From a virus, in IMG/VR virus record IMGVR_UViG_3300025120_000323, positions 1 to 30,324 of that record: a stretch of DNA of 30,324 nt; one strand, given 5' to 3'. Each line of letters starts with the position of its first letter. Position 1 is the stretch's first letter. This document shows positions 774-24,580 of this stretch, piece after piece. Both the position numbers and the translations under genes were made by a program. A model generated the notes under the pieces. It was not told where the DNA came from. It searched no databases and was given only the letters and a program-made list of their open reading frames with translations.

Positions 774-949
774 GAAGCATAAGAGAGTGGGACAGACGCG
801 CCAAGCTAAAGCACGAGTATGAGAAACGCAGACTAGCATCTCGGTATGCGCTCAAGCAAGTGTGCATAGAGTTGGTTGTTATCACGCTATGCGCTACTGG
901 CATAGTAGCTATAATTTATCTAATGGGACAATCAGGAGTACTACAATGA
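770..949 (+). CDS. Small single-pass membrane protein, 59 aa
   Basis: Starts at the ATG of the ATGA junction with the preceding gene and ends in another ATGA junction with the next, so it looks translationally coupled on both sides. The first 33 residues are strongly basic and charged (MRSIREWDRRAKLKHEYEKR and on). They are followed by a hydrophobic segment of about 20 residues (roughly 36-55, core VVITLCATGIVAIIYLMG) and a short polar tail. The positive-inside rule predicts a cytoplasmic N-terminus. I do not recognise the family. A small inner-membrane early protein of unknown role is the best description. Confidence 0.6.
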   Translation: MRSIREWDRRAKLKHEYEKRRLASRYALKQVCIELVVITLCATGIVAIIYLMGQSGVLQ

Positions 950-1839
950 ACGATACAACTGCAACACCTAAAGTCGAAGCACCATCCATCGGTTCTAGCG
1001 CCATGCTAGTAGAGTTACAGGTTAGCCAGTGGACAGGTCGCAAGAAGGACAAGACAGCATCAGTCGAAGTGACTGATCAAAACTGGGCAGAGAAAGGTAC
1101 GGCATCAGTCAATAAGAAGTTACTAGGTAACTGTGACGAGCTGACCGCCATACACAAATTCACCGCCAACTCACGCAACATACACTACAAGTCCACCATG
1201 CCGTGGAGTGATACAGGTATGCGGCTACTACCGACAGCGCAGTATTTCAAATACCACCAACAGATGACTGAGTTACAAAACGAGTTCGAGCGTATGGCAC
1301 AGTCATTCATCAGCAACTATGATTGGGAGATCAGCAGGGCACAGGCACGGCTAGGTAATCTGTTTGTACGTGATGACTACCCTACTACGGACTCTATCTC
1401 TCGCAAGTTTGCATTCAACATATCTTACATACCATTGCCAGATGCAGGTGACTTTCGTGTGGATGTGGGCAACGACCAGAAGCAAGTACTCGAAGATCAT
1501 TACAACGAGTATTACAACAGGCAACTGCACTCTGCTATGAATGATGTGTGGCAACGCACCTACAAGGTGTTGAGTAATATGTCTGAGCGTCTGGACTATG
1601 AGCAGGGAGAGAAGAAGATCTTTCGTGACACTCTTGTTGACAATGTTACTGACATGGTAGAACTACTTAACGTGTGCAATGTGACAGGTGACAGCCAGAT
1701 GTCGGCGATGTCTATGAAGCTAGAGGATACGCTACGTGGCATTACCCCTGACGCATTACGTGAGGACTCATACCTCCGTGCCGAAACCAAACGTGCGGTG
1801 GACAAAGTTATTGCAACACTACCATCGTTGGATATGTAA
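946..1839 (+). CDS. DUF3150-like protein, 297 aa
   Basis: The start is set at the ATG of the ATGA junction, with AGGAG seven bases upstream. An in-frame upstream extension would overlap the membrane-protein gene. The N-terminal third contains VSQWTGRKKDK (about residues 29-39), then a KKLLG stretch, a PW-D-G-RLLP segment and LGNLF-DYP. This pattern matches what I recall of DUF3150, a family found beside MoxR-type ATPases and VWA proteins in phages and plasmids. The middle and C-terminal parts look helical. The gene directly precedes a MoxR-like ATPase and a metallopeptidase-VWA gene, which supports a three-part complex. The biochemical role is unknown and the family call is from memory. Confidence 0.6.
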   Translation: MNDTTATPKVEAPSIGSSAMLVELQVSQWTGRKKDKTASVEVTDQNWAEKGTASVNKKLLGNCDELTAIHKFTANSRNIHYKSTMPWSDTGMRLLPTAQYFKYHQQMTELQNEFERMAQSFISNYDWEISRAQARLGNLFVRDDYPTTDSISRKFAFNISYIPLPDAGDFRVDVGNDQKQVLEDHYNEYYNRQLHSAMNDVWQRTYKVLSNMSERLDYEQGEKKIFRDTLVDNVTDMVELLNVCNVTGDSQMSAMSMKLEDTLRGITPDALREDSYLRAETKRAVDKVIATLPSLDM

Positions 1840-1840
1840 G

Positions 1841-1999
1841 GTGAGTATCAACGGACAAGCGGTGCTACGTGTGCGCAACTACAAGCGCACCAAGCACTAC
1901 AAAGAAATGCGGATACCGAAGGGTCGGACCCCTCGTGTAGCGTATTACCAAGTCGTGACTCGCAAGGGTCGCATACTAGAAAGTTATAACACGTTATAA
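1841..1999 (+). CDS. Small basic protein, 52 aa (GTG start)
   Basis: A GTG start two bases after the preceding stop opens a 52-codon frame rich in Arg, Lys and Tyr (VRNYKRTKHYKEMR, then PKGRTPRVAYYQVVTRKGRI). It has no acidic patches, and could bind nucleic acid. Its last codons and TAA stop lie inside the second GTTATAAC operator, so the 3' end is constrained by that element. No good Shine-Dalgarno sequence precedes the GTG; coupling to the upstream gene would be needed. I do not recognise a family, and it may not be a real gene. Confidence 0.45.
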   Translation: MSINGQAVLRVRNYKRTKHYKEMRIPKGRTPRVAYYQVVTRKGRILESYNTL

Positions 2000-2004
2000 C
2001 AAAC
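1983..2004. promoter_or_regulatory. Duplicated GTTATAAC operator, copy 2
   Basis: Exact 22-bp copy of the element at 558-579: GTTATAAC-AC-GTTATAAC followed by AAAC. It is placed 16 bp before the ATG of the AAA+ ATPase gene and overlaps the Shine-Dalgarno approach. Because it lies inside an operon, it may bind a regulator acting as roadblock, or act at RNA level, rather than as a classic promoter operator. I see no -10/-35 pair just upstream. Confidence 0.6.
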
Positions 2005-2020
2005 CATAAGGAATGTAACT

Positions 2021-3100
2021 ATGAACGCAAATAAAATGTACGAAATGAACCTTAGTCAGATATCTAAAGCTATTGCCGCAGTCGGACATCTACGCACAGT
2101 ATATGTAGAGGGTCACATGGGTAACGGTAAGACATCACTACTAGATATGTTATCTAAGATGTTACCTGACCACATACCCTGTTACTTCAACTGTGTTACC
2201 AAAGATCTGGGTGACTTGAGTATACCATCACTCAACACCACCGAGGGGTACGTCACATACTTACCCAATGAAGAGTTTGGTATCCATCACGGCAAACCCC
2301 TGATCATCATGTTTGATGAGTGGCCAAAAGCTAATCAGTCAGTCAAGAACGGTACGCTTGTTACTATGCTAGAGCGCACAGTAGGTACAAAGAAGTTACC
2401 AGAAGGTAGTATCGTATTTGCTACAGGTAATCTAGGTGCAGAGGGTGTTGGCGATACTACACCACCTCACGCACGTAATCGTATGATTATGCTACGCGCA
2501 CGTAAGTCTACCAGTGAGGAGTTGATTGAGCATGGTATCAATAAAGGGTGGGAGCCTAGTGTATTGGGATTCATACGTGAGTTCCCTCAGATACTACAGG
2601 GGTTCGAGGATGTCAGAGACCCGAACGACAATCACTACATCAACCATCCCAAAGCACAGCGTATATCTTTTGTCACACCAAGATCATTGGAAGCTTGTAG
2701 TGACATACTCAAGCAACGGCATATGTTCGATGATCACAGTCTAACAGCTTTACTCATGGGTACTATCGGTGATCGTGGCGCTATGGACTTGGTGGCATTC
2801 GTCAAGTTGGCTGACCAACTACCATCATGGGAATCTATCAAGCAAGACCCAACCAACGCCAAAGTACCTGACTCCGCCTCGGCAGTATGTATGGTGGTGT
2901 ATCGCGCACTAGGTAACATGACTAGAGAAACAATCACACCATTCATGCAGTACCTACCCCGACTGAGTAAGGAGGCACAGGGTATGTTTGCCAATGGTGT
3001 ACGTGCTAATACCTACGCGCATCGGTCACTGGTGATGAGTAACAAACTGTTCACCGCATGGGCTATGCAAAACAACTACATGTTTTCTGCTGACAAGTAA
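2021..3100 (+). CDS. MoxR/CobS-like AAA+ ATPase, 359 aa
   Basis: ATP-dependent remodelling ATPase. Walker A is GHMGNGKT (residues 31-38), Walker B IIMFDE (95-100) and sensor 1 FATGN (133-137). An arginine-containing PPHARNRM (148-155) fits the arginine-finger region. The layout matches MoxR-type AAA+ proteins, including those named CobS in marine myophages. These usually work with a VWA-domain partner to remodel or load a target complex. The partner is evidently the next gene, 11 bp downstream, with the DUF3150-like protein as third member. AAGGA lies eight bases before the ATG. The C-terminal half (170-359) is probably the helical lid plus family-specific helices. The target is unknown. A role in cobalt chelation is unlikely, since no other cobalamin gene is visible. 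Confidence 0.85.
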   Translation: MNANKMYEMNLSQISKAIAAVGHLRTVYVEGHMGNGKTSLLDMLSKMLPDHIPCYFNCVTKDLGDLSIPSLNTTEGYVTYLPNEEFGIHHGKPLIIMFDEWPKANQSVKNGTLVTMLERTVGTKKLPEGSIVFATGNLGAEGVGDTTPPHARNRMIMLRARKSTSEELIEHGINKGWEPSVLGFIREFPQILQGFEDVRDPNDNHYINHPKAQRISFVTPRSLEACSDILKQRHMFDDHSLTALLMGTIGDRGAMDLVAFVKLADQLPSWESIKQDPTNAKVPDSASAVCMVVYRALGNMTRETITPFMQYLPRLSKEAQGMFANGVRANTYAHRSLVMSNKLFTAWAMQNNYMFSADK

Positions 3101-3111
3101 GGAGAGTAACA

Positions 3112-4431
3112 ATGCTTAAACTTAATGGGAATCTGACTGAGGAGCAACGCCTAGAGAAAGCGGTGGTTGCTATTATCAGCGAACCTAAGTACACAGCACT
3201 GGCAGGGGTATTGATGATCGGTGACAAGGTTATTGATGAGAGTATACCTACCGCGTGTACCAATGGACGTGATGAGAAGTATGGACGTGAGTTTGTCAAG
3301 GGTATCAATGATGCTGAGTTACGTGGTGTGGTTATCCACGAGAACAAGCACAAGATATACCGACATCTTACTACGTGGAAACACCTATGGGACATTGACC
3401 CCAAGCTTGCAAATATGTCTATGGACTACGTTATTAATCTTGAGGTGATTGACGAGAATCCACCCAACAAGAGTGGCGTACGCTTTGCCGTACTGCCTGA
3501 GGGTGGGCTAGTCGATGAGCAGTACCGAGGTATGGATACAGCTCAAGTGTTCAAGATGCTACGCAAGAAGAAAGAAGAAGGTGGCGGTGGTGATGGCGAT
3601 GAAGAGAGTGAGGGTAGCAAAGATGGTGACGGTAAAGGTAAGTCACCCGGGAGAAGTGGTGGTAGTACTCCACAAGATAACGAGTCAGGAGGTGACACCG
3701 ACAGCGATGTTACAGATACCCACGGTGGTTTTGATGAGCACGATTTCGCAGGTGCGCAAGAACTATCCGCTGATGAACAGCGCGAACTAGCCAGAGACAT
3801 TGACGAGGCCATACGTCAGGGTGCTATGTCAGCAGGTAAGATGGGTGCAAATCAAGCAAGGTCACTCGATGAACTGCTACAACCCCAAGTCGATTGGCGT
3901 GAGGTACTACGTGAGTTTATTCATGCTACGTGTGTAGGTAATGACTACTCTACATACTCTCGACCCAATCGTAGGCTAATGAGTCAGGGTATATACATGC
4001 CAAGCGGTGTCAGTGAGAAGGTCAATGAGTTGGTACTAGCCATTGACACGTCAGGCTCGGTGGGTCAGCACGAGTTGACAGTCATGCTTACTGAGGTCAA
4101 GGGTGTATGTGACACAGTAAAACCCGACAAGGTGCGCCTACTGTATTGGGGTAGCGATGTGGTACGTGACGAAGTGTACGGTACGCACGAACTAGATCAG
4201 CTAATACATTCTACCAAGCCGCGTGGAGGTGGTGGCACTGACGTTACATGCGTTACCGAGTACATGAAGGAGAAGAACATCAATCCGCAAGCGACCATTG
4301 TATTGACAGACGGTTACTTGTTTGGTGGTTGGGGTGATTGGACATGTCCAGTGTTATGGGCAATCCTAGATCACAAAGGGGCTGTGCCAAGCACAGGTAA
4401 AGCAGTACACATAAAATCAGAGGATATGTGA
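3112..4431 (+). CDS. Metallopeptidase-VWA protein (DUF2201 type), 439 aa
   Basis: Two-domain protein. The N-terminal domain carries a zinc-protease motif HENKH (residues 76-80, HExxH), followed by a MDYVIN segment (104-109) whose Asp105 could be a third ligand. This is the layout of the putative metallopeptidase domain of DUF2201 proteins. A low-complexity Gly/Asp/Glu/Lys linker spans about 152-208. The C-terminal VWA-like domain has an intact MIDAS set: DTSGS (312-316), Thr in GGTD (376) and Asp in LTDG (400). AAGGAG precedes the ATG by seven bases. It is probably the effector partner of the upstream AAA+ ATPase. The stop overlaps the next start as TGATG. The peptidase activity is predicted, and the substrate is unknown. 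Confidence 0.8.
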   Translation: MLKLNGNLTEEQRLEKAVVAIISEPKYTALAGVLMIGDKVIDESIPTACTNGRDEKYGREFVKGINDAELRGVVIHENKHKIYRHLTTWKHLWDIDPKLANMSMDYVINLEVIDENPPNKSGVRFAVLPEGGLVDEQYRGMDTAQVFKMLRKKKEEGGGGDGDEESEGSKDGDGKGKSPGRSGGSTPQDNESGGDTDSDVTDTHGGFDEHDFAGAQELSADEQRELARDIDEAIRQGAMSAGKMGANQARSLDELLQPQVDWREVLREFIHATCVGNDYSTYSRPNRRLMSQGIYMPSGVSEKVNELVLAIDTSGSVGQHELTVMLTEVKGVCDTVKPDKVRLLYWGSDVVRDEVYGTHELDQLIHSTKPRGGGGTDVTCVTEYMKEKNINPQATIVLTDGYLFGGWGDWTCPVLWAILDHKGAVPSTGKAVHIKSEDM

Positions 4432-4604
4432 TGGACGATTTTGAGAGTACGTTGAAACGCCGAATGGAGTGGGATACAGCAGTACAGGAAGTGGAGAAAG
4501 CGGTGAGATTTAGACTAGATGCTATGGACTCTAGGTTCTCATACGCTAGTGAAGATGACAAAGAACGCCTAGCGCAAGCGTGGGTACGAATACTACAAGG
4601 GTAA
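4431..4604 (+). CDS. Small acidic hypothetical protein, 57 aa
   Basis: Starts in a TGATG junction with the preceding gene, so it is probably translated by re-initiation. The product is charged and predicted largely helical (MDDFESTLKRRMEW, then VQEVEKAVRFRLDAM). It has no membrane segment, cysteine cluster or known motif. It closes the DUF3150-AAA-VWA cassette and is followed by a clear ribosome site (AAGGAGA) for the next gene. It might be a small accessory subunit of that cassette. No family is recognised. Confidence 0.6.
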   Translation: MDDFESTLKRRMEWDTAVQEVEKAVRFRLDAMDSRFSYASEDDKERLAQAWVRILQG

Positions 4605-5892: not shown

Positions 5893-6845
5893 GCCATAAG
5901 AACGTGGTACGGGTGAGTGATGTAGGTATTCTAGTTGATGGTAGGGGTATACGTGAGTTTACTGAGGATGAACTGGATCAAGACGGTAACAACCAATACG
6001 TTATTATGTTTATGAAGGAGATACGTAAGATATTTCCTACTATCAAGTTTGCAGGGGATGTTTTTAATCCACGAGATGGTGTGACCTACGCAAAGAATAA
6101 CCTACGTCCCAACAAGATACACATATACACAGATACAGATGAGTGGTGTTGGGGGTGGATAGCCTATGAAGATTACAAAGTAGATAGTGCAGGTGATTGT
6201 ATGTACTGCGTGTACTCACGCAAGATAGAAAACAACAAGTATGACTACAGTAGAATACAACACCACATAGTTATGACGAGTAAACTAGACATAGCGGTAC
6301 GTAATGCTAAAAGGTACCTATCCCCATTTAACTTCAAAGAGATAGTGGACTACTCCAAATCAGGTGTAGTACAAGGTTTAGAAGAGCACGAACGCGCAAT
6401 TAGAAATACTTTGTTTGAGGCAAAGAAACCCTTTCAAGAAGGTCCAAGTATTGGGGGCTTACCTCAACTGTTTACTGAGTTGTTTCACTTAGTTGATTCT
6501 GAGTATAAGTTCTTATCAGAAAAGTTTACTAACCAACTAAGTACTTTGCGTAGTGCCTACGAACATTATGTAGAGCATGACAAAAACCCTGTAAGCTTTT
6601 ACTGTGTACGTATACATGAGCGTAGAGGACACCAACTGTTTGATGTCATACCAACTAAGGATCTCACCGCCAGTTCATGGGGCAACGTAAGTAGGTTGGA
6701 TGGCGATCCTACTACATGCACTGAGGAGACTTTACCTACAGATATTATGGGTAAGTTATCTGTCCTTTCCATCGCCGAAATAGGTGAGTACATACACGAT
6801 GTAGGTTATCGTGAGAGTGAAGGCATATTCTATGTTACACAGTGA
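5889..6845 (+). CDS. Hypothetical phage protein, 318 aa
   Basis: Coupled to the previous gene by an ATGA overlap, with AAGGAG 8-9 bases upstream. Soluble and mixed alpha/beta in appearance: an acidic N-terminal part (FTEDELDQDGNN), a Tyr/Trp/Cys-rich middle (DEWCWGWIAYEDY, GDCMYCVYSRK), then a long helical stretch (about 140-225). The CMYC pair is too isolated to call a zinc site. No catalytic motif is recognised. Neighbouring unknown genes and shared ribosome-site style suggest they are co-expressed early genes. Confidence 0.65.
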   Translation: MSHKNVVRVSDVGILVDGRGIREFTEDELDQDGNNQYVIMFMKEIRKIFPTIKFAGDVFNPRDGVTYAKNNLRPNKIHIYTDTDEWCWGWIAYEDYKVDSAGDCMYCVYSRKIENNKYDYSRIQHHIVMTSKLDIAVRNAKRYLSPFNFKEIVDYSKSGVVQGLEEHERAIRNTLFEAKKPFQEGPSIGGLPQLFTELFHLVDSEYKFLSEKFTNQLSTLRSAYEHYVEHDKNPVSFYCVRIHERRGHQLFDVIPTKDLTASSWGNVSRLDGDPTTCTEETLPTDIMGKLSVLSIAEIGEYIHDVGYRESEGIFYVTQ

Positions 6846-7110
6846 CAACTCTACGTATGAATATGGTTCAGATACTACTGTTCATCGCGCATGTATACAC
6901 AGTGATAGCAATACGATTGAAATATCATGTTTAGGCATGGATTGTGTTGACTCGCCAGACAATGGTGTGTACGATTCTATGGACAAATTACCTGATTGGA
7001 TACAAGATAGGTTAGCGGTGTTGCTTTTATGTGACCCAACTCCCCCGACTAAAGAAGTAAATGGTATAGGGAGAAGGATAGACGCTAGTGTTTTTTGGAT
7101 ACATAAATAA
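6832..7110 (+). CDS. Small acidic hypothetical protein, 92 aa
   Basis: I chose the ATG at 6832, which overlaps the preceding gene by 14 bases and has GAAGG about nine bases upstream. A GTG at 6811 or 6817 would add 5-7 residues. The product is acidic (DNSTYEYGSD, CVDSPDNGVYDSMD) with four cysteines and a hydrophobic LAVLLLC segment too short to span a membrane. No family is recognised. Confidence 0.5.
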   Translation: MLHSDNSTYEYGSDTTVHRACIHSDSNTIEISCLGMDCVDSPDNGVYDSMDKLPDWIQDRLAVLLLCDPTPPTKEVNGIGRRIDASVFWIHK

Positions 7111-18438: not shown

Positions 18439-18474
18439 CCCCCTATTCGTTGCCGAGACGGTAGGGGGTTTTTT
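18439..18474 (+). terminator. Rho-independent terminator of the rightward operon
   Basis: CCCCCTA (18439-18445) pairs with TAGGGGG (18462-18468), with an inner CGT/ACG extension, followed at once by six T. This is a strong intrinsic terminator for the replication-side transcript. Read on the other strand there is no T-run after the stem, so it is unlikely to stop leftward transcripts efficiently. The stop codon of the leftward 2035-aa gene lies at 18473-18475, overlapping the end of this T-tract. Confidence 0.9.
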
Positions 18475-21400
18475 ATTGTCTATACTCCATGTTACTTTTC
18501 TGTATTGCATACTTCATAAGTGGGTTTATCGTAACACCATTGTGCATTTTTGCAGTGGTGTCCATATGAGATTCTACAGACTTCATTATATTACTAGGCG
18601 TGACTGCTTCTACTGGATGCCTTTGATTATGCTCATTTATATCATCCATTATGTTAGACATTTCCTCGTAGTCCCCTCTAGTGCTAGCCACATAGAACTT
18701 TTTAGTTAGTCTAGTTCTTTTTTCTGTTATAGCTCGTTCTACACGTTTATTTCTAGCTGTCTGTTCTTGCCTGAAAGTATATTCAGCAGGGGGGAAGCCT
18801 AATGCTTGGGCCGCAAAATCACTTATGGTCATATCATCATAAATAGGGTCGTTTCTTCTAGTACGTATACCTCCTTCTCTAACATACCTACCTACAGTAC
18901 TACGATAAAAATTGGTTAAACCCGCAGGGGCTAGGCTCTCAAGTCCTCGCTCTAATTCTCCATCACGTAAGTCTCCCATACCACGATATAACCTGTTAGC
19001 AGTGCTAAGTGAAGGGCCGCCTAAATAATAAGCTAAACTCTCTTCTAATGATGGGTCTTTATTAAACCTGTTTTCTTGTAATAACAAACCTGTAAGTCTT
19101 ACACGACTAGCTACATCTACACCAGTAAGCTCTGCTATAGCGCCTTTATACCAGCCTTCACCTATATACTTACGAAATGCTGTGTCTGCATCATCTTCTT
19201 CATCGTCAAACCAAAACAAGTCAAACATCATAGATATCGCGCCGTAAAGAGGTATGCCTTGAAGCCCCGCAAAAAATACGGCGGATAGATGTATTCCTGC
19301 TAATTGTTTTAGAGCCATATTTCTTAGCTCACTGTTAGCGTTTTTACCATACATATTATTTATAGCTAACTTACCTGCTTTAATCATAGAGTAATACATT
19401 TGTAGACCATAACTCTTATACATTAAAGCTACACGCCCTATACCTTGTTGAGAAGCACCTACAGCAGTTTCTAATACTGCGCCGCCATTAGTTTCTTGAG
19501 TGAGATATAAAGCTTCTTCCGCCGCCTTTTTCATGCGCTCACTCATACTAGAAGGAACGTCTATAAACGCGCCATCGACCGCGCTGTAGTATTTCTTGTT
19601 ATTATTCATCTTATCTAGTACTAAGTTATAGCTAGCTGTAAGGGCTACTTGCCTATTAAACCTTTCGGCAGAACTAAACATAATCGCGGATACCGCAGAA
19701 GTACCATCTAAAAACTTTAATATCTTATTGCTATTACTCTTGCGCCCTAAATCATCAACTCCTAACTGGTCTTTTAATTCTGAGTGATATATTTGCCCTC
19801 TATCATTAGCCATTTTAACTAAGGGAATCATTCGCTTCATCATAGCTATTTTTTCATTAGCTTTCTTAGCAGTAGGAGAAGTCTTACGTATTTTCTTCTC
19901 CACAGAACTTTTTAAAGTATATACGTCGTCTTTAATATCATAATATTCATCAATAGATAGTTTTGATGCGCCCACAAACTTAGTGGCTTGAGCTATAGCT
20001 TTATTGGCATTGTTTATTCCAAACTTACCTGATAGAAATGGTCCCACCACTAAAGGTATTTGAGACAGGTTAACTAACGCAGAAGATGCATTAAAGCCAA
20101 TGGTGTATATAAATGCTAGTTGGTTTGATCTTTGAAAATACTTTTCAGTAGCTTTATTGTTTGCACCTGTTCGTGCAAACTTGGCTCTCAGCCGCATCTC
20201 TTCTCTTACACTATTAAAAGTGCTTTGTTTTATATCTTTAGGAGTATCCTTAAACTCAATAGCATCTATCTCTTTTTCTATTTGGCGTATATTTGCCACA
20301 GCTTTCATTTTTTCTACTTGAGCACTTAGGTCGTATCCTTTATTTTGCATAGCATTACGTACGTCTTTATCATACCCTAACACGTTTTTACGTTTTTGTA
20401 GAGATTTAGCAAAAGAGGTTTCAGGTAATGTTTCAATAAACAATCGCATTATCTGTTCTTGCACTGCCGAGTCCGCATCCTTACCACTAGCGGATATAAC
20501 ATCTAGTACGTCAGAAACAAAAGACTCAGGAGGAGCGTTTTTAAATCTAGAAGGGTTGGTCTCTCCATCATAAGATACAGGATCACCTACCGTATTAGGA
20601 TCAGACTTTACTTCATCTAACATATTGTCTCTTTGTGTTCTGTTTTCAAACATTAAGAACACAGGCTCTACTCTGCCGTCTATAGTGGTGTCAAAAGATA
20701 TTTTATACTTTCCTTGTCGCACTAACGGGAAATACACTTCTAACTCACGAGCCTGTATTAAACGCTCATTTATTTGTTTCTTTAACCTAGTCTTTTGTGG
20801 AGTTACTTTCCCATCACCTAGAGCATCTATCTCACCATTAATAACCCTAACTAAGGCTTCATACATATTTTTATAGGCAGCACGTTGGGCATTAAATTGA
20901 TCTTGTCCGCTTTTACCTAAAGCATTCCAATCTTTACGTTGAGCTTTCCAGACATCTTCTAAACTATTACCACTAGTATCTGTCTTACCTTTATAATCAC
21001 TTTGAGGTTTGTTAGGGTCTACTTGGTATAAAGTAGCGCCGTAGTCAGAATGGTAAACCAAACGATCTAAAGCTTCTTTAGCTTCTATTCCATTGCTTTT
21101 TACCCAAGCATCATAGTCGGCCAATACAGCTTTTATTTTGTTATTAGCTTTTTGAATGCCTCCTCTTTGCCTTTCAAACGCTACATGTAGTTGTTGTCCT
21201 AAAGAACCAAAACCAACGTTTCTTGCTATATCTCCTAATGCTTGAGAACCAGTAAGTTTGTAAAGCGCTTCTTTTGCTTTTATATTGACTTCTTTACCTG
21301 CATTCAAAAAGTCCACTGCATTTTTTACAAAAAGCTTTTTATTTCCAGAAGATATAGACCTCTGAATATCCCCCATGTCTTTTAACATATCTTTAACACC

Positions 21401-24400
21401 ATCAGAAGTAGCATCTAACATACCTGAATTTCTTGTATTAGGACTAGGAGATAGTGAAGCCATTATTACAGCATCAACAGCATCCAAAGCGGAGTTAGCT
21501 GACTTAGTATTCATACCAATTAGTTTACGTATGTAGTTAGTAATAGAACGGAAGAACCTTTGTAAGGCACTTATTTTCTCACCTTTAGGGTTCATAGAAG
21601 CTAAAGTACGTTGAAAGCTAGCATTGCTAAACGTCTCTGCTACAAAATCATTGACTCCTTCTGCGCCATAAGCAGTGCCTAGCTGATCTTGTACATCATA
21701 ATATAATTTACTAAGTTGTTTGGTAACAGGGTGTGATTTGTTATTAAGCACATCAAATGTGGCCGCGTGAGTAGCTTCATGTAGTAACGAGTGTACGGTG
21801 GCGCCTTTGTTAGGATCTAAAGTTATAGTTTTAGTATTTGGATTAAACGTAGATACTGCCTTACCCCCTACATTACCTACTCCTATAGACACTCCGTCCA
21901 TATTATTAGACAACGCTCTAGCAATTTGAGTAATGCGCTTGCTTGTAGAAGTCTTAGCTACATCTTGCAATGCGCCTTTTAAGTCGTTGTTTTTGACCTT
22001 TGTTTTAATAGAGGTAGACAAATCATTATCTAAAGCCACTTCTTCTTTTGAATTTAGTTCTAGATTAAGCACATCAATGTTACCACCTCGTTTTAAAAAG
22101 GTGTCAGTGTCTTTCGCTATCTTTTCTCTTAACTGCGCAGGGGACATGGTTTCATCTAGTGCAGGTTTTGCATTCTTACCTCTTTTACCCTGCACTTTTT
22201 CTACTGCGTCAGCCACACGCGCTAACTCTTGTTCTTCTTTATTTAATTTTCTCTGCGCTTTAGGAGTTTCTTTAACTACTTTCTCAGCTTTCTTTACAGG
22301 AGCTTTTCTGTCAGGTACTACCTGTACCTTACCCTTAGTAGCTTTTTCTACTGCTACAGCAGTCTTAGCATCACGTTGCTTTACTTTGGTATCTTCTTGT
22401 TCTTGTTTAGCTCGCGCTGTAACATCTTTCTCTACTTTAGTTGATTCTTTTTGTTGCTCTACGACGCGCTTATCTACTTCAGCTTTAGCATCAGGACTTA
22501 GGTTTTTCTCTATCCACTGTAATGTAGCCTTAGTGTTTTCTCCTCCCGTCCCTGCAAACTTGGCTTTCTCGGAAGTAGGAGTGCCTTTTTGTACTCTAAA
22601 CTTAGGTGTGTTTTCTGCAATCTCAAAAGCTATAGCTGTAAATGCATCAGCAGGACGCTTAAATCTTTTAATGTATGTCTGAGCAGTTTGTTCAATACCT
22701 TTTTTATCACGAGGTATCTTCTTACCTAGTAACGTATTTATAGCTGTTACATCTTTAGGGTTAGTAAACTCTGCGCCACGAGGTACGGCAGTGGGAAACT
22801 CTATACTTCCATCTATGTTAGAACTGGTATCAACAGGAGCTTCTACTTTAGTCTTAACTTGTTTAGGTGTAGTAACTTTCTTTGGAGTCACCGGGGGAGA
22901 CGTAGAAACTTCTCCAGTATCAGTTGCGTTGAGTCTTTGTTTAGGTTTAGTTTTTAAAGAGTCAGGTACCAGAGCTTGCGTTGCTTCTGATATATTGGCA
23001 TCTTTTAATATCTTTCCTACGTCTGCCATTTCAGGCGCACTGTATAATGTCTTAGGTTCAGCGACGGTATCAGCTAATGTTTGAGGTCTAGCTTCAGGGC
23101 TAACGTCTCCAGTTTGAGCTGCACTGCGCCTCTGAGGTATTTGAGCTTCCATAGAAGCAGTGTCTGCATTTCTATCTACATCTTTAGTAAGTCGTGTACC
23201 TGTTTCCGCTTTTTGGAAGTTGACTGCTTTTTGTATGGCTCCAGCTTCGGTGTTTGTTACTTTTGTATCTGTAACTCCTAGGTCTTTTAATTCTTTTTGA
23301 AAAGCTTTAGTTAAAGTGTTGTAGTTATTTGTAGGGTTGGACTCAATTACTTCTTGAAGCACAGCTTCTCTACGCCGAGTACGGTCAGTTAGTGTACGCT
23401 CTTGTCTACGCCCTTCTAAACTTTCTAAATTAGACTCAAAACGTTCAATCGTTTTAAGATCTTCTATATTTTGTTTTTCTTCAGCATCAAACTGCTTTAT
23501 CATATCTAGCTGTTCAGGGGCATCTATATTATATTTTTCAGCCTCTTCTCTAGCTTTACCTACTTCTAACTCTTGAGTAGTTGGTCCTACACGGTTTATA
23601 TCAGATAATTCTGCGGCATCAAGCTCAGTAGAGAACATATCTATCTGCTCTTCTCCAAGCTCTGTACCTCTTAGTACTCTAGCTTCTTCTTCAGTTACGT
23701 TTATATCTTCATCAGTTACTTCTGTTGGCGCTTCACCGCCCTTTGAAGTACGCGCCCGCCCTTTAACAAGTACGTCTGCTAACGCTTGAACTATAGCACC
23801 CGCACCACCACCAATAGTAGCTTCATCAAGTACACCTGCATCAATAAGCTCTTTTTCAGGGTTATAACCTTGCTCAGTAAGATTTTGTAGTATAGCGGCA
23901 GAGGCTTCTTGTGCGCCCTCAAATACTCCTGTAACCCCTGCACTGCGGACTCGATCCATAATTCCGTTTATAGATTTAGGGCCAAGCTTATCTAATACCT
24001 TGGTAATTCCGGGAATTTTTAAGCCTTTAGCAACTCTACCTAGAGGAGTAAGTTCAAGTAGACCTATACCAAAACCTTTAGTAGCAGCAATATTTCGTTG
24101 TTCTTCAGTAGCACCTGCGGCACGAGCACGTTCACTAGCTTCACCAGAACCCGCGCTACCAACTATAGCACCTGCGGCGGGTAATGCGGCAGGGCCAAGA
24201 AAAGCTGTAGGTAGTAAAGCGCCTATAGAACCAACACCAGAAGCCAACTTATAAGATAAAGACTCTTTGTCTCCACCTTCGGGACGCAAGAAATTAGCCG
24301 CGTTCTGTATTTTTTCACGGGCTTTTAATTCCTCTTCTTCTTCTAATAGTGCAATAGCGCCAAGTCCAGCAGACTCATATAATCCTACTGCACCTGCACC

Positions 24401-24580
24401 AAGCCCTGTAGCTACGTTTTCAAAAAACCCTGCTTTTTCTTCTTCTACGGCAGGGCCATACAACTTTTCTAATTCTGAAGTTTTTTTAGCTATTTCTACA
24501 GACAGAAATCTAACTGCTTGTTCGTCTCCTGCGGATTTAGCATTTGCAACAGCTCTTTGTAATTCTGAAAGAGTAAACAT
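18473..24580 (-). CDS. Giant polyvalent virion protein with HExxH motif, 2035 aa
   Basis: The N-terminus has two Gly/Ala-rich hydrophobic stretches (about 52-80 and 113-145) that could insert in membranes. A long charged, low-complexity Lys/Glu region (about 550-860) follows. LHEATHAAT then gives a zinc-protease motif (His934, Glu935, His938), with NDFVAET supplying a likely third ligand Glu982. The C-terminal region (about 1480-1800: RTGANNKATEKYF, ALMYKSYGLQMYYSM) resembles the LPD38/PLxRFG-type domain of phage large polyvalent proteins, with a hydrophobic AVFFAGLQGIPLYGAI segment. Such proteins travel inside capsids and help genome ejection. Only a weak AGG element precedes the ATG. It is probably a late gene. 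The domain naming is from memory; the HExxH is seen directly. Confidence 0.75.
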   Translation of the reverse strand: MFTLSELQRAVANAKSAGDEQAVRFLSVEIAKKTSELEKLYGPAVEEEKAGFFENVATGLGAGAVGLYESAGLGAIALLEEEEELKAREKIQNAANFLRPEGGDKESLSYKLASGVGSIGALLPTAFLGPAALPAAGAIVGSAGSGEASERARAAGATEEQRNIAATKGFGIGLLELTPLGRVAKGLKIPGITKVLDKLGPKSINGIMDRVRSAGVTGVFEGAQEASAAILQNLTEQGYNPEKELIDAGVLDEATIGGGAGAIVQALADVLVKGRARTSKGGEAPTEVTDEDINVTEEEARVLRGTELGEEQIDMFSTELDAAELSDINRVGPTTQELEVGKAREEAEKYNIDAPEQLDMIKQFDAEEKQNIEDLKTIERFESNLESLEGRRQERTLTDRTRRREAVLQEVIESNPTNNYNTLTKAFQKELKDLGVTDTKVTNTEAGAIQKAVNFQKAETGTRLTKDVDRNADTASMEAQIPQRRSAAQTGDVSPEARPQTLADTVAEPKTLYSAPEMADVGKILKDANISEATQALVPDSLKTKPKQRLNATDTGEVSTSPPVTPKKVTTPKQVKTKVEAPVDTSSNIDGSIEFPTAVPRGAEFTNPKDVTAINTLLGKKIPRDKKGIEQTAQTYIKRFKRPADAFTAIAFEIAENTPKFRVQKGTPTSEKAKFAGTGGENTKATLQWIEKNLSPDAKAEVDKRVVEQQKESTKVEKDVTARAKQEQEDTKVKQRDAKTAVAVEKATKGKVQVVPDRKAPVKKAEKVVKETPKAQRKLNKEEQELARVADAVEKVQGKRGKNAKPALDETMSPAQLREKIAKDTDTFLKRGGNIDVLNLELNSKEEVALDNDLSTSIKTKVKNNDLKGALQDVAKTSTSKRITQIARALSNNMDGVSIGVGNVGGKAVSTFNPNTKTITLDPNKGATVHSLLHEATHAATFDVLNNKSHPVTKQLSKLYYDVQDQLGTAYGAEGVNDFVAETFSNASFQRTLASMNPKGEKISALQRFFRSITNYIRKLIGMNTKSANSALDAVDAVIMASLSPSPNTRNSGMLDATSDGVKDMLKDMGDIQRSISSGNKKLFVKNAVDFLNAGKEVNIKAKEALYKLTGSQALGDIARNVGFGSLGQQLHVAFERQRGGIQKANNKIKAVLADYDAWVKSNGIEAKEALDRLVYHSDYGATLYQVDPNKPQSDYKGKTDTSGNSLEDVWKAQRKDWNALGKSGQDQFNAQRAAYKNMYEALVRVINGEIDALGDGKVTPQKTRLKKQINERLIQARELEVYFPLVRQGKYKISFDTTIDGRVEPVFLMFENRTQRDNMLDEVKSDPNTVGDPVSYDGETNPSRFKNAPPESFVSDVLDVISASGKDADSAVQEQIMRLFIETLPETSFAKSLQKRKNVLGYDKDVRNAMQNKGYDLSAQVEKMKAVANIRQIEKEIDAIEFKDTPKDIKQSTFNSVREEMRLRAKFARTGANNKATEKYFQRSNQLAFIYTIGFNASSALVNLSQIPLVVGPFLSGKFGINNANKAIAQATKFVGASKLSIDEYYDIKDDVYTLKSSVEKKIRKTSPTAKKANEKIAMMKRMIPLVKMANDRGQIYHSELKDQLGVDDLGRKSNSNKILKFLDGTSAVSAIMFSSAERFNRQVALTASYNLVLDKMNNNKKYYSAVDGAFIDVPSSMSERMKKAAEEALYLTQETNGGAVLETAVGASQQGIGRVALMYKSYGLQMYYSMIKAGKLAINNMYGKNANSELRNMALKQLAGIHLSAVFFAGLQGIPLYGAISMMFDLFWFDDEEDDADTAFRKYIGEGWYKGAIAELTGVDVASRVRLTGLLLQENRFNKDPSLEESLAYYLGGPSLSTANRLYRGMGDLRDGELERGLESLAPAGLTNFYRSTVGRYVREGGIRTRRNDPIYDDMTISDFAAQALGFPPAEYTFRQEQTARNKRVERAITEKRTRLTKKFYVASTRGDYEEMSNIMDDINEHNQRHPVEAVTPSNIMKSVESHMDTTAKMHNGVTINPLMKYAIQKSNMEYRQ

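Follow-up and report, generated by a model that had tools for sequence, protein, structure and literature searches.

The closest described systems combine a MoxR-type ATPase with a VWA protein. In the MoxR-vWA systems the VWA protein captures a substrate peptide and the ATPase remodels the substrate, and the systems implicated in biological conflict add a third protein, the VMAP type having the order third protein, MoxR, vWA (PMC7159879). In N4-like phages gp24-gp25 is a core pair, with gp24 listed as unknown and gp25 as carrying a vWFA domain, and in N4 both are middle genes (PMC4193335). For jumbo phages a pair of an ATPase and a metallopeptidase-vWA protein has been published, together with a proposed role in virion assembly (PMC7824862). 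The pairing of an ATPase with a zincin-VWA protein is thus already known. Here we analyze a locus of the 30,324-base virus record IMGVR_UViG_3300025120_000323 (this whole stretch is referred to as the window), in which the two genes of such a pair adjoin each other, as in the N4-type arrangement, and follow a gene encoding a DUF3150 protein. An initial annotation had presented this locus as its best candidate for an undescribed system, which is at odds with the published pairs of jumbo and N4-like phages. The features of the locus are as follows.

946-1839, plus strand: DUF3150 protein, candidate substrate or adaptor subunit, 297 amino acids (aa); PF11348, E=4e-10
2021-3100, plus strand: MoxR-like AAA+ ATPase, 359 aa; phrog_1297, E=2e-46
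2111-2134, plus strand: Walker A motif of the ATPase, G31-T38, GHMGNGKT; K37 in 64/64
3112-4431, plus strand: fusion of a zincin-like putative metallopeptidase domain and a VWA domain (DUF2201 family), 439 aa; PF13203 and PF09967
3337-3351, plus strand: HExxH motif of the zincin domain, H76 E77 N K H80; H, E and H in 79/79
4045-4059, plus strand: MIDAS motif DTSGS, D312-S316, completed by T376 and D400; 79/79 and 14 divergent relatives
1841-1999, plus strand: small basic open reading frame (ORF), accessory, 52 aa, GTG start, between the DUF3150 and ATPase genes
4428/4431-4604, plus strand: ORF of 57-58 aa outside the conserved unit, overlapping the stop of the VWA gene

The ORFs of the DUF3150, MoxR and HExxH-VWA genes at 946-4431 were all confirmed, and the residues singled out by the initial annotation, Lys37, Glu77 and Asp312, are correctly numbered (K37, H76-E77-x-x-H80, and D312).

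The three genes stay together in viral relatives. Scanning of IMG/VR with the VWA protein gave 142 confirmed relatives, of which the best 80 were kept and 79 loci used, the window (L001) and its 100% identical copy (L002) being left out; across these loci the VWA protein is 51-67% identical to that of the window (best segment). The MoxR gene is present in 74 of the 79 loci and the DUF3150 gene in 58. In the five loci that lack MoxR the VWA match begins at most 88 bases from the contig end; another 16 lack DUF3150, and there the contig ends no more than 438 bases from the start of the MoxR match. These distances are covered by the gene spacings observed elsewhere (20-669 bases), and members of the trio are missing solely at contig ends. 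The order is DUF3150-MoxR-VWA in every one of the 58 complete loci. Among the best 80 of at least 595 loci from a scan seeded with PolA, 13 have at least 6 kb upstream (10 on new contigs, three shared with the VWA-seeded set), and all 13 hold the trio, which therefore looks core to the phage group of the window. A scan seeded with DUF3150 yielded 36 viral loci, and all three genes are held by each of the 26 with at least 3.6 kb downstream; 13 of these contigs were new to the VWA-seeded set, and the other 13 include the near-copy of the window. The order is DUF3150-MoxR-VWA in 24 of the 26 and MoxR-DUF3150-VWA, as on plasmids, in two (L281 and L282), so that the gene order is changeable while the set stays together. 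The initial annotation had staked its case on the genes being conserved together, and in every viral locus of these two scans with room for the trio they are.

The small ORFs between the trio genes are variable, being gained or lost among loci. Relatives of the 52-aa ORF were detected in 22/79 loci, all in a subclade (tblastn E<=1; two weakest E=0.81), and other loci have different ORFs or none in the gap between DUF3150 and the ATPase. The ORF of 57-58 aa, which had been proposed as a coupled member of the set, was rejected as a fourth component, since besides the near-identical copy it has weak relatives in only two of the 79 loci (L034, 38%, and L067, 39%). A distance-matrix test of co-variation (25 loci, 300 pairs) gave partial r of 0.40 for DUF3150-VWA, 0.38 for MoxR-VWA and -0.12 for DUF3150-MoxR.

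The ATPase matches phrog_1297, named 'ATPase', and its best Pfam trace is AAA_2, all Pfam AAA models being below cut-off; some of its relatives carry the name MoxR in database records. Search by sequence against solved structures gave nothing useful. The Walker A and B, sensor and arginine residues expected of a MoxR AAA+ ATPase are present, the sensor and arginine-finger roles being those that we presume for them. Residues G31, G34, G36, K37, D99, E100, N137, R152, R154 and R221 are all at least 97% conserved (K37 in 64/64, D99/E100 in 66/66, N137 in 67/67, R152 in 67/69, R154 in 69/70, and R221 in 70/70; here and below, counts omit proteins truncated at the position concerned), and 62 of the 63 full-length ATPases conform to the plain Walker A pattern.

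The third protein belongs to the DUF2201 family, with PF13203 (DUF2201_N, 'Putative metallopeptidase domain', E=2e-25, 90.4 bits against a cut-off of 23.2) followed by PF09967 ('VWA-like (DUF2201)', E=1.6e-14, 54.5 bits against 26.4), both above the curated cut-off. Positions H76, E77, H80, D105, D312, S314, S316, T376, and D400 are each conserved in 79/79 viral relatives, and 14 divergent proteins, taken from N4, other phages and plasmids, show no change in H76/E77/H80/D105 or in the MIDAS. The AlphaFold2 model places the HExxH on a helix spanning residues 67-82 and D105, a candidate third zinc ligand, on the next long helix (97-115). With an HExxH (HENKH in the window) and, on a helix further along the chain, a possible third ligand, the protein bears the marks of a zincin and is a putative zinc binder. 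The profile of the 14 divergent proteins matches, across the HExxH, an M48 peptidase (E=0.007) and archaeal MJ1213 (E=4.7e-4), which we take to be the minigluzincin selecase. The VWA domain of the model resembles solved VWA domains, including the MDN1 MIDAS and NorD domains, both of which work with AAA+ partners. The label 'HNH endonuclease' (phrog_1314; N4 RefSeq record NC_008720.1, L087, 3165-4307) was rejected for this protein, as no HNH model was found for it in Pfam at E<=1; the same label stands on many phage records among the VWA-protein matches listed.

The DUF3150 protein scores 39.9 bits against a curated cut-off of 24.9 for PF11348. It is 39-74% identical to 41 aligned phage relatives and 26-32% identical to its counterparts on plasmids (25 records listed out of 44). 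The two alignments of trio proteins, A1 and A2, hold 41/44 and 48/59 distinct full-length relatives, respectively. The AlphaFold2 model of DUF3150 has pLDDT 79 and pTM 0.50. Foldseek returned 0 matches for it at E<=0.001, and the best hits of VIA-align (Z up to 9.8) are helical-bundle and designed proteins, so that the fold can be called neither new nor known; a sequence search against solved structures gave nothing useful. No paper mentions DUF3150 in the searched literature, which excludes bioRxiv preprints and most subscription journals, and within it no published description of the DUF3150 component, or of the whole trio on plasmids, was found.

The VWA protein matched 728 of 50,697 phage records by tblastn, all below 60% identity, and DUF3150 matched three (MinM2, Pag-Yong1, and Pra-JY27). 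In Vequintavirus genomes DUF2201_N and MoxR genes lie on opposite strands near rIIA/rIIB (L173, 814-2274 on the minus strand and 5926-7110 on the plus strand; L090). On the trees of the VWA and MoxR proteins the distribution of trio versus pair needs at least three changes; the starred branches force three for the VWA tree and only one for the MoxR tree. The DUF3150-linked copies do not form one clade in either tree, and several long branches meet, so that neither a single origin nor several origins of the DUF3150 link can be firmly concluded.

Plasmids carry the same three families. Of 72,556 plasmid records, 44 are matched by DUF3150 (E<=0.01) and 85 by the VWA protein (E<=1e-5), and the order on the fetched Cupriavidus, Burkholderia, Simplicispira, and Rhodovastum plasmids is MoxR-DUF3150-VWA. 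A match on an Acinetobacter 'plasmid' (L093, NZ_CP110465.1, Acinetobacter baumannii) was not counted as plasmid evidence because it looks like an N4-like phage genome: a DNA-directed RNA polymerase is annotated upstream, and an Acinetobacter phage gave almost the same match. A first bacterial scan, seeded with the ATPase, gave three stretches, none of them confirmed; with plasmid DUF3150s as seeds, a scan of genomes yielded 79 loci (L094-L172). In L094-L154 MoxR is found in 59 of 61 loci and VWA in 60 of 61, the misses being contig ends or a truncated DUF3150 copy. In L155-L172 DUF3150 stands with a different AAA gene, presumably of the Ycf46 type, in 15 of 18 loci, with no MoxR or VWA found in the fetched stretches; in the remaining three the DUF3150 frame begins at most 142 bases from the contig end. 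That DUF3150 accompanies AAA+ genes of two different families speaks for a role linked to an ATPase.

DNA-processing genes recur around the bacterial and plasmid copies: Toprim primase, SSB, RadC, exonuclease, UvrD or ParB genes occur near trio or DUF3150 loci. A ThiF gene of the PRTRC (ParB-related, ThiF-related) set lies upstream in 28 of the 51 Burkholderiales loci L094-L144 (fetched stretch). PRTRC ThiF was above cut-off in 12/12 Burkholderiaceae genomes versus 0/6 other genomes, with control matches in 8/14 genomes, never above cut-off; the association may simply reflect one plasmid backbone. The Cupriavidus PRTRC ThiF, A, and B proteins matched none of the 79 partial phage loci (phmmer E<=1e-5), the whole window lying outside this search. 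In five planctomycete loci (L159, L160, L161, L163, and L165), including L161 from which both the JAB and the ThiF query came, Prok-JAB-like and ThiF genes lie downstream of DUF3150 and the Ycf46-type AAA; two JAB genes tested were slightly below the Pfam cut-off, and two ThiF genes well above. DUF3150 thus occurs near ThiF/JAB (ubiquitin-like) genes in two bacterial settings. The neighborhood queries (PRTRC, JAB, ThiF, and DNA-processing) matched none of the 79 phage loci at E<=1e-5.

In the window the trio is followed on the plus strand by PolA, PDDEXK exonuclease, helicase, SSB, and primase genes. The DUF3150 gene begins with an ATG at 946 that shares bases with the stop codon of the ORF before it, and a purine-rich stretch stands just 5' of the start codon in each of the three genes. 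Terminase_6N (PF03237) is above cut-off in 7 of 10 trio-bearing records of 33-62 kb, which supports tailed-phage genomes, the control for this model giving matches in 6 of 14 well-known bacterial and archaeal genomes; the phrog_2 terminase matched 0/8 viral records. In six of the seven (L003, L016, L030, L039, L050, and L058) the terminase match falls inside the fetched stretch, on the opposite strand and 3.1-3.8 kb upstream of DUF3150, so that the trio opens the replication-side arm. The initial annotation called the trio genes early; their position is the basis for this putative timing. The minus strand carries the four largest ORFs beyond 18.4 kb, and at 18473-24580 on that strand is a 2,035-aa ORF whose C-terminal part matches the 'DarB-like antirestriction' profile phrog_10089 (E=3e-40).

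With a probability of roughly 0.5, we interpret the trio as a three-subunit, ATP-driven remodeling machine, perhaps proteolytic, that works inside the cell while mobile elements are in their DNA phase. The MoxR-like ATPase would form a ring; the VWA domain, with its intact MIDAS, would bind a substrate segment and couple the substrate to the ring; the zincin domain, fused ahead of the VWA domain, would cut the exposed substrate; and DUF3150 would recognize or present it. This mechanism is modeled on the way in which the studied MoxR-vWA systems work (PMC7159879). The machine's task would fall within the intracellular DNA phase (replication, takeover or establishment) and not in virion assembly alone, because plasmids carry the same three-gene set; a role confined to the virion sits badly with carriers that form no virions. 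The plasmid copies and the replication-side position argue that virion assembly is not the whole story, and in phages virion substrates may still be among those handled. The ATPase-VWA machine with its own predicted zinc protease that the initial annotation envisaged is supported, as judged from the sequences, by genes kept intact and together.

Several observations weigh against this interpretation. The adaptor role of DUF3150 is a guess from context, since its model, at pTM 0.50, matched no fold clearly. DUF3150 was not found in the fetched regions of N4, a Rhizobium phage, a Salicola jumbo phage, Vequintavirus or pSYSA, so not every ATPase-VWA pair needs it. PolA shows partial r of 0.34 with DUF3150 and 0.36 with MoxR, so that co-variation does not favor the trio over PolA. 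Finally, 26 of 77 loci (16 of 59 distinct proteins; 77 of the 79 loci are covered by this count) carry HExxxH in place of HExxH, in the form HE[D/E]EGH and as HEDEGH in 25 of the 26 (L006-L009, L011-L026, L028, L029, L034, L064, L068, and L070). The tree of the two forms requires at least three switches (identical proteins collapsed), and some members of the group may have an altered protease. An HExxxH variant has been described among the zincins of polyvalent proteins (PMC5512222). Among the relatives the His/Glu, MIDAS, and ATPase residues are essentially invariant; free variation of the HExxH histidines and glutamate, which the initial annotation had named as refuting its case, is not seen, and their spacing is what varies.

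Of the alternatives, virion assembly or processing would have the ATPase-VWA pair fold tail or head parts and the zincin trim structural proteins. Such a role has been proposed for jumbo phages (PMC7824862) and has an analogy in the pair of Acidianus two-tailed virus, as cited in PMC7159879 and PMC7824862. The four virion proteins of roseophage RPP1 encoded near gp24/gp25 homologues (PMC4193335) also point to it and count against a machine of the DNA phase. Nevertheless, we consider this explanation unlikely, given a trio that shares the plus-strand arm with PolA, helicase, and primase genes, with the terminase match on the other strand in six records, and that is carried by plasmids, two of them typed conjugative. 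No virion genes are annotated in the fetched plasmid stretches, a point weakened by the fact that the plasmids outside these stretches were not searched.

Another doubtful explanation is counter-defense or host takeover, with the machine dismantling a host or rival-element complex that threatens incoming DNA. Phages and conjugative plasmids, both carriers of the trio, meet the same intracellular defenses; zincin peptidases are the commonest domain of the anti-host polyvalent proteins of phages and plasmids (PMC5512222); and on pSYSA the ATPase-VWA pair lies near toxin-antitoxin and putative RNase genes. On the other hand, no target was identified, no PADLOC match was found at E<=0.1, and presence of the trio in 13/13 testable PolA-seeded loci is unlike a patchy accessory gene. 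Membership in a known anti-phage defense system was rejected on the same PADLOC result. Among the roles named in the initial annotation, which were inactivation of a host complex, anti-defense and assembly, none is singled out by these data, and the plasmid copies speak against an exclusively virion-assembly role.

We also hold as a tentative and rather improbable proposal that the trio is a self-contained ATP-dependent protease of a new architecture, in which MoxR is the motor, VWA the clamp, the zincin a tethered protease, and DUF3150 an exchangeable adaptor, and that the machine or its adaptor may read ubiquitin-like tags, because in plasmids and planctomycetes DUF3150 sits beside E1/JAB ubiquitin-like tagging genes. 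A pure chaperone, or an activase of metal centers or enzymes of the chelatase/MoxR kind with a structural, non-cutting HExxH domain, agrees with five of the six studied MoxR-vWA systems being remodeling or assembly systems and one likely peptide-degrading (PMC7159879), and with the 26 loci with HExxxH, but is very improbable because the catalytic Glu and both His are conserved in 79/79 aligned phage relatives and 14/14 divergent members, a constraint that seems excessive for a structural role.

The ATPase-VWA pair is core both to N4-like phages and to the marine group of the window, and its presence on plasmids with a third partner means that the search for substrates should not be limited to virion proteins and makes DUF3150 the subunit to pursue. 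Tractable models are N4 in laboratory E. coli for the pair and a Cupriavidus necator plasmid for the trio.

Escherichia phage N4 (Schitoviridae) likewise has an ATPase followed by a DUF2201-type zincin-VWA protein, with the HExxH, the equivalent of D105 and the MIDAS conserved, and differs in that DUF3150 was not found in the 20 kb fetched; the VWA protein of the N4-like pair is about 26-33% identical to that of the window in the 40 isolate records listed. Jumbo phages of group 2.2 share MoxR and an N-terminal metallopeptidase-vWA protein in the same domain order, with DUF3150 unmentioned and virion assembly proposed in the available text (PMC7824862). The cassettes of a Ycf46-type AAA, DUF1257 and DUF3150 from a Nitrospirota plasmid, Deltaproteobacteria, and Planctomycetes also have DUF3150 beside an AAA+ ATPase, in DNA-processing or ThiF/JAB surroundings, and differ in the ATPase family and in that zincin-VWA was not found in the fetched stretches. 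The VMAP/iSTAND ternary systems (PMC7159879) resemble the trio in having an ATPase, a VWA protein, and a third conserved protein, in the VMAP case in the gene order of the window, whereas the trio matched no effector domain and is carried by mobile elements; no VMAP model is among the Pfam matches of DUF3150 at E<=1, and no dedicated profile-profile test was made. The plasmid cassettes of Burkholderiales, including Simplicispira, and of Rhodovastum differ from the window in that MoxR comes first and PRTRC genes are often upstream, and on the Simplicispira plasmid about 3.6 kb separates the ATPase from DUF3150. They are alike in that the three families share a strand and lie side by side or almost so.

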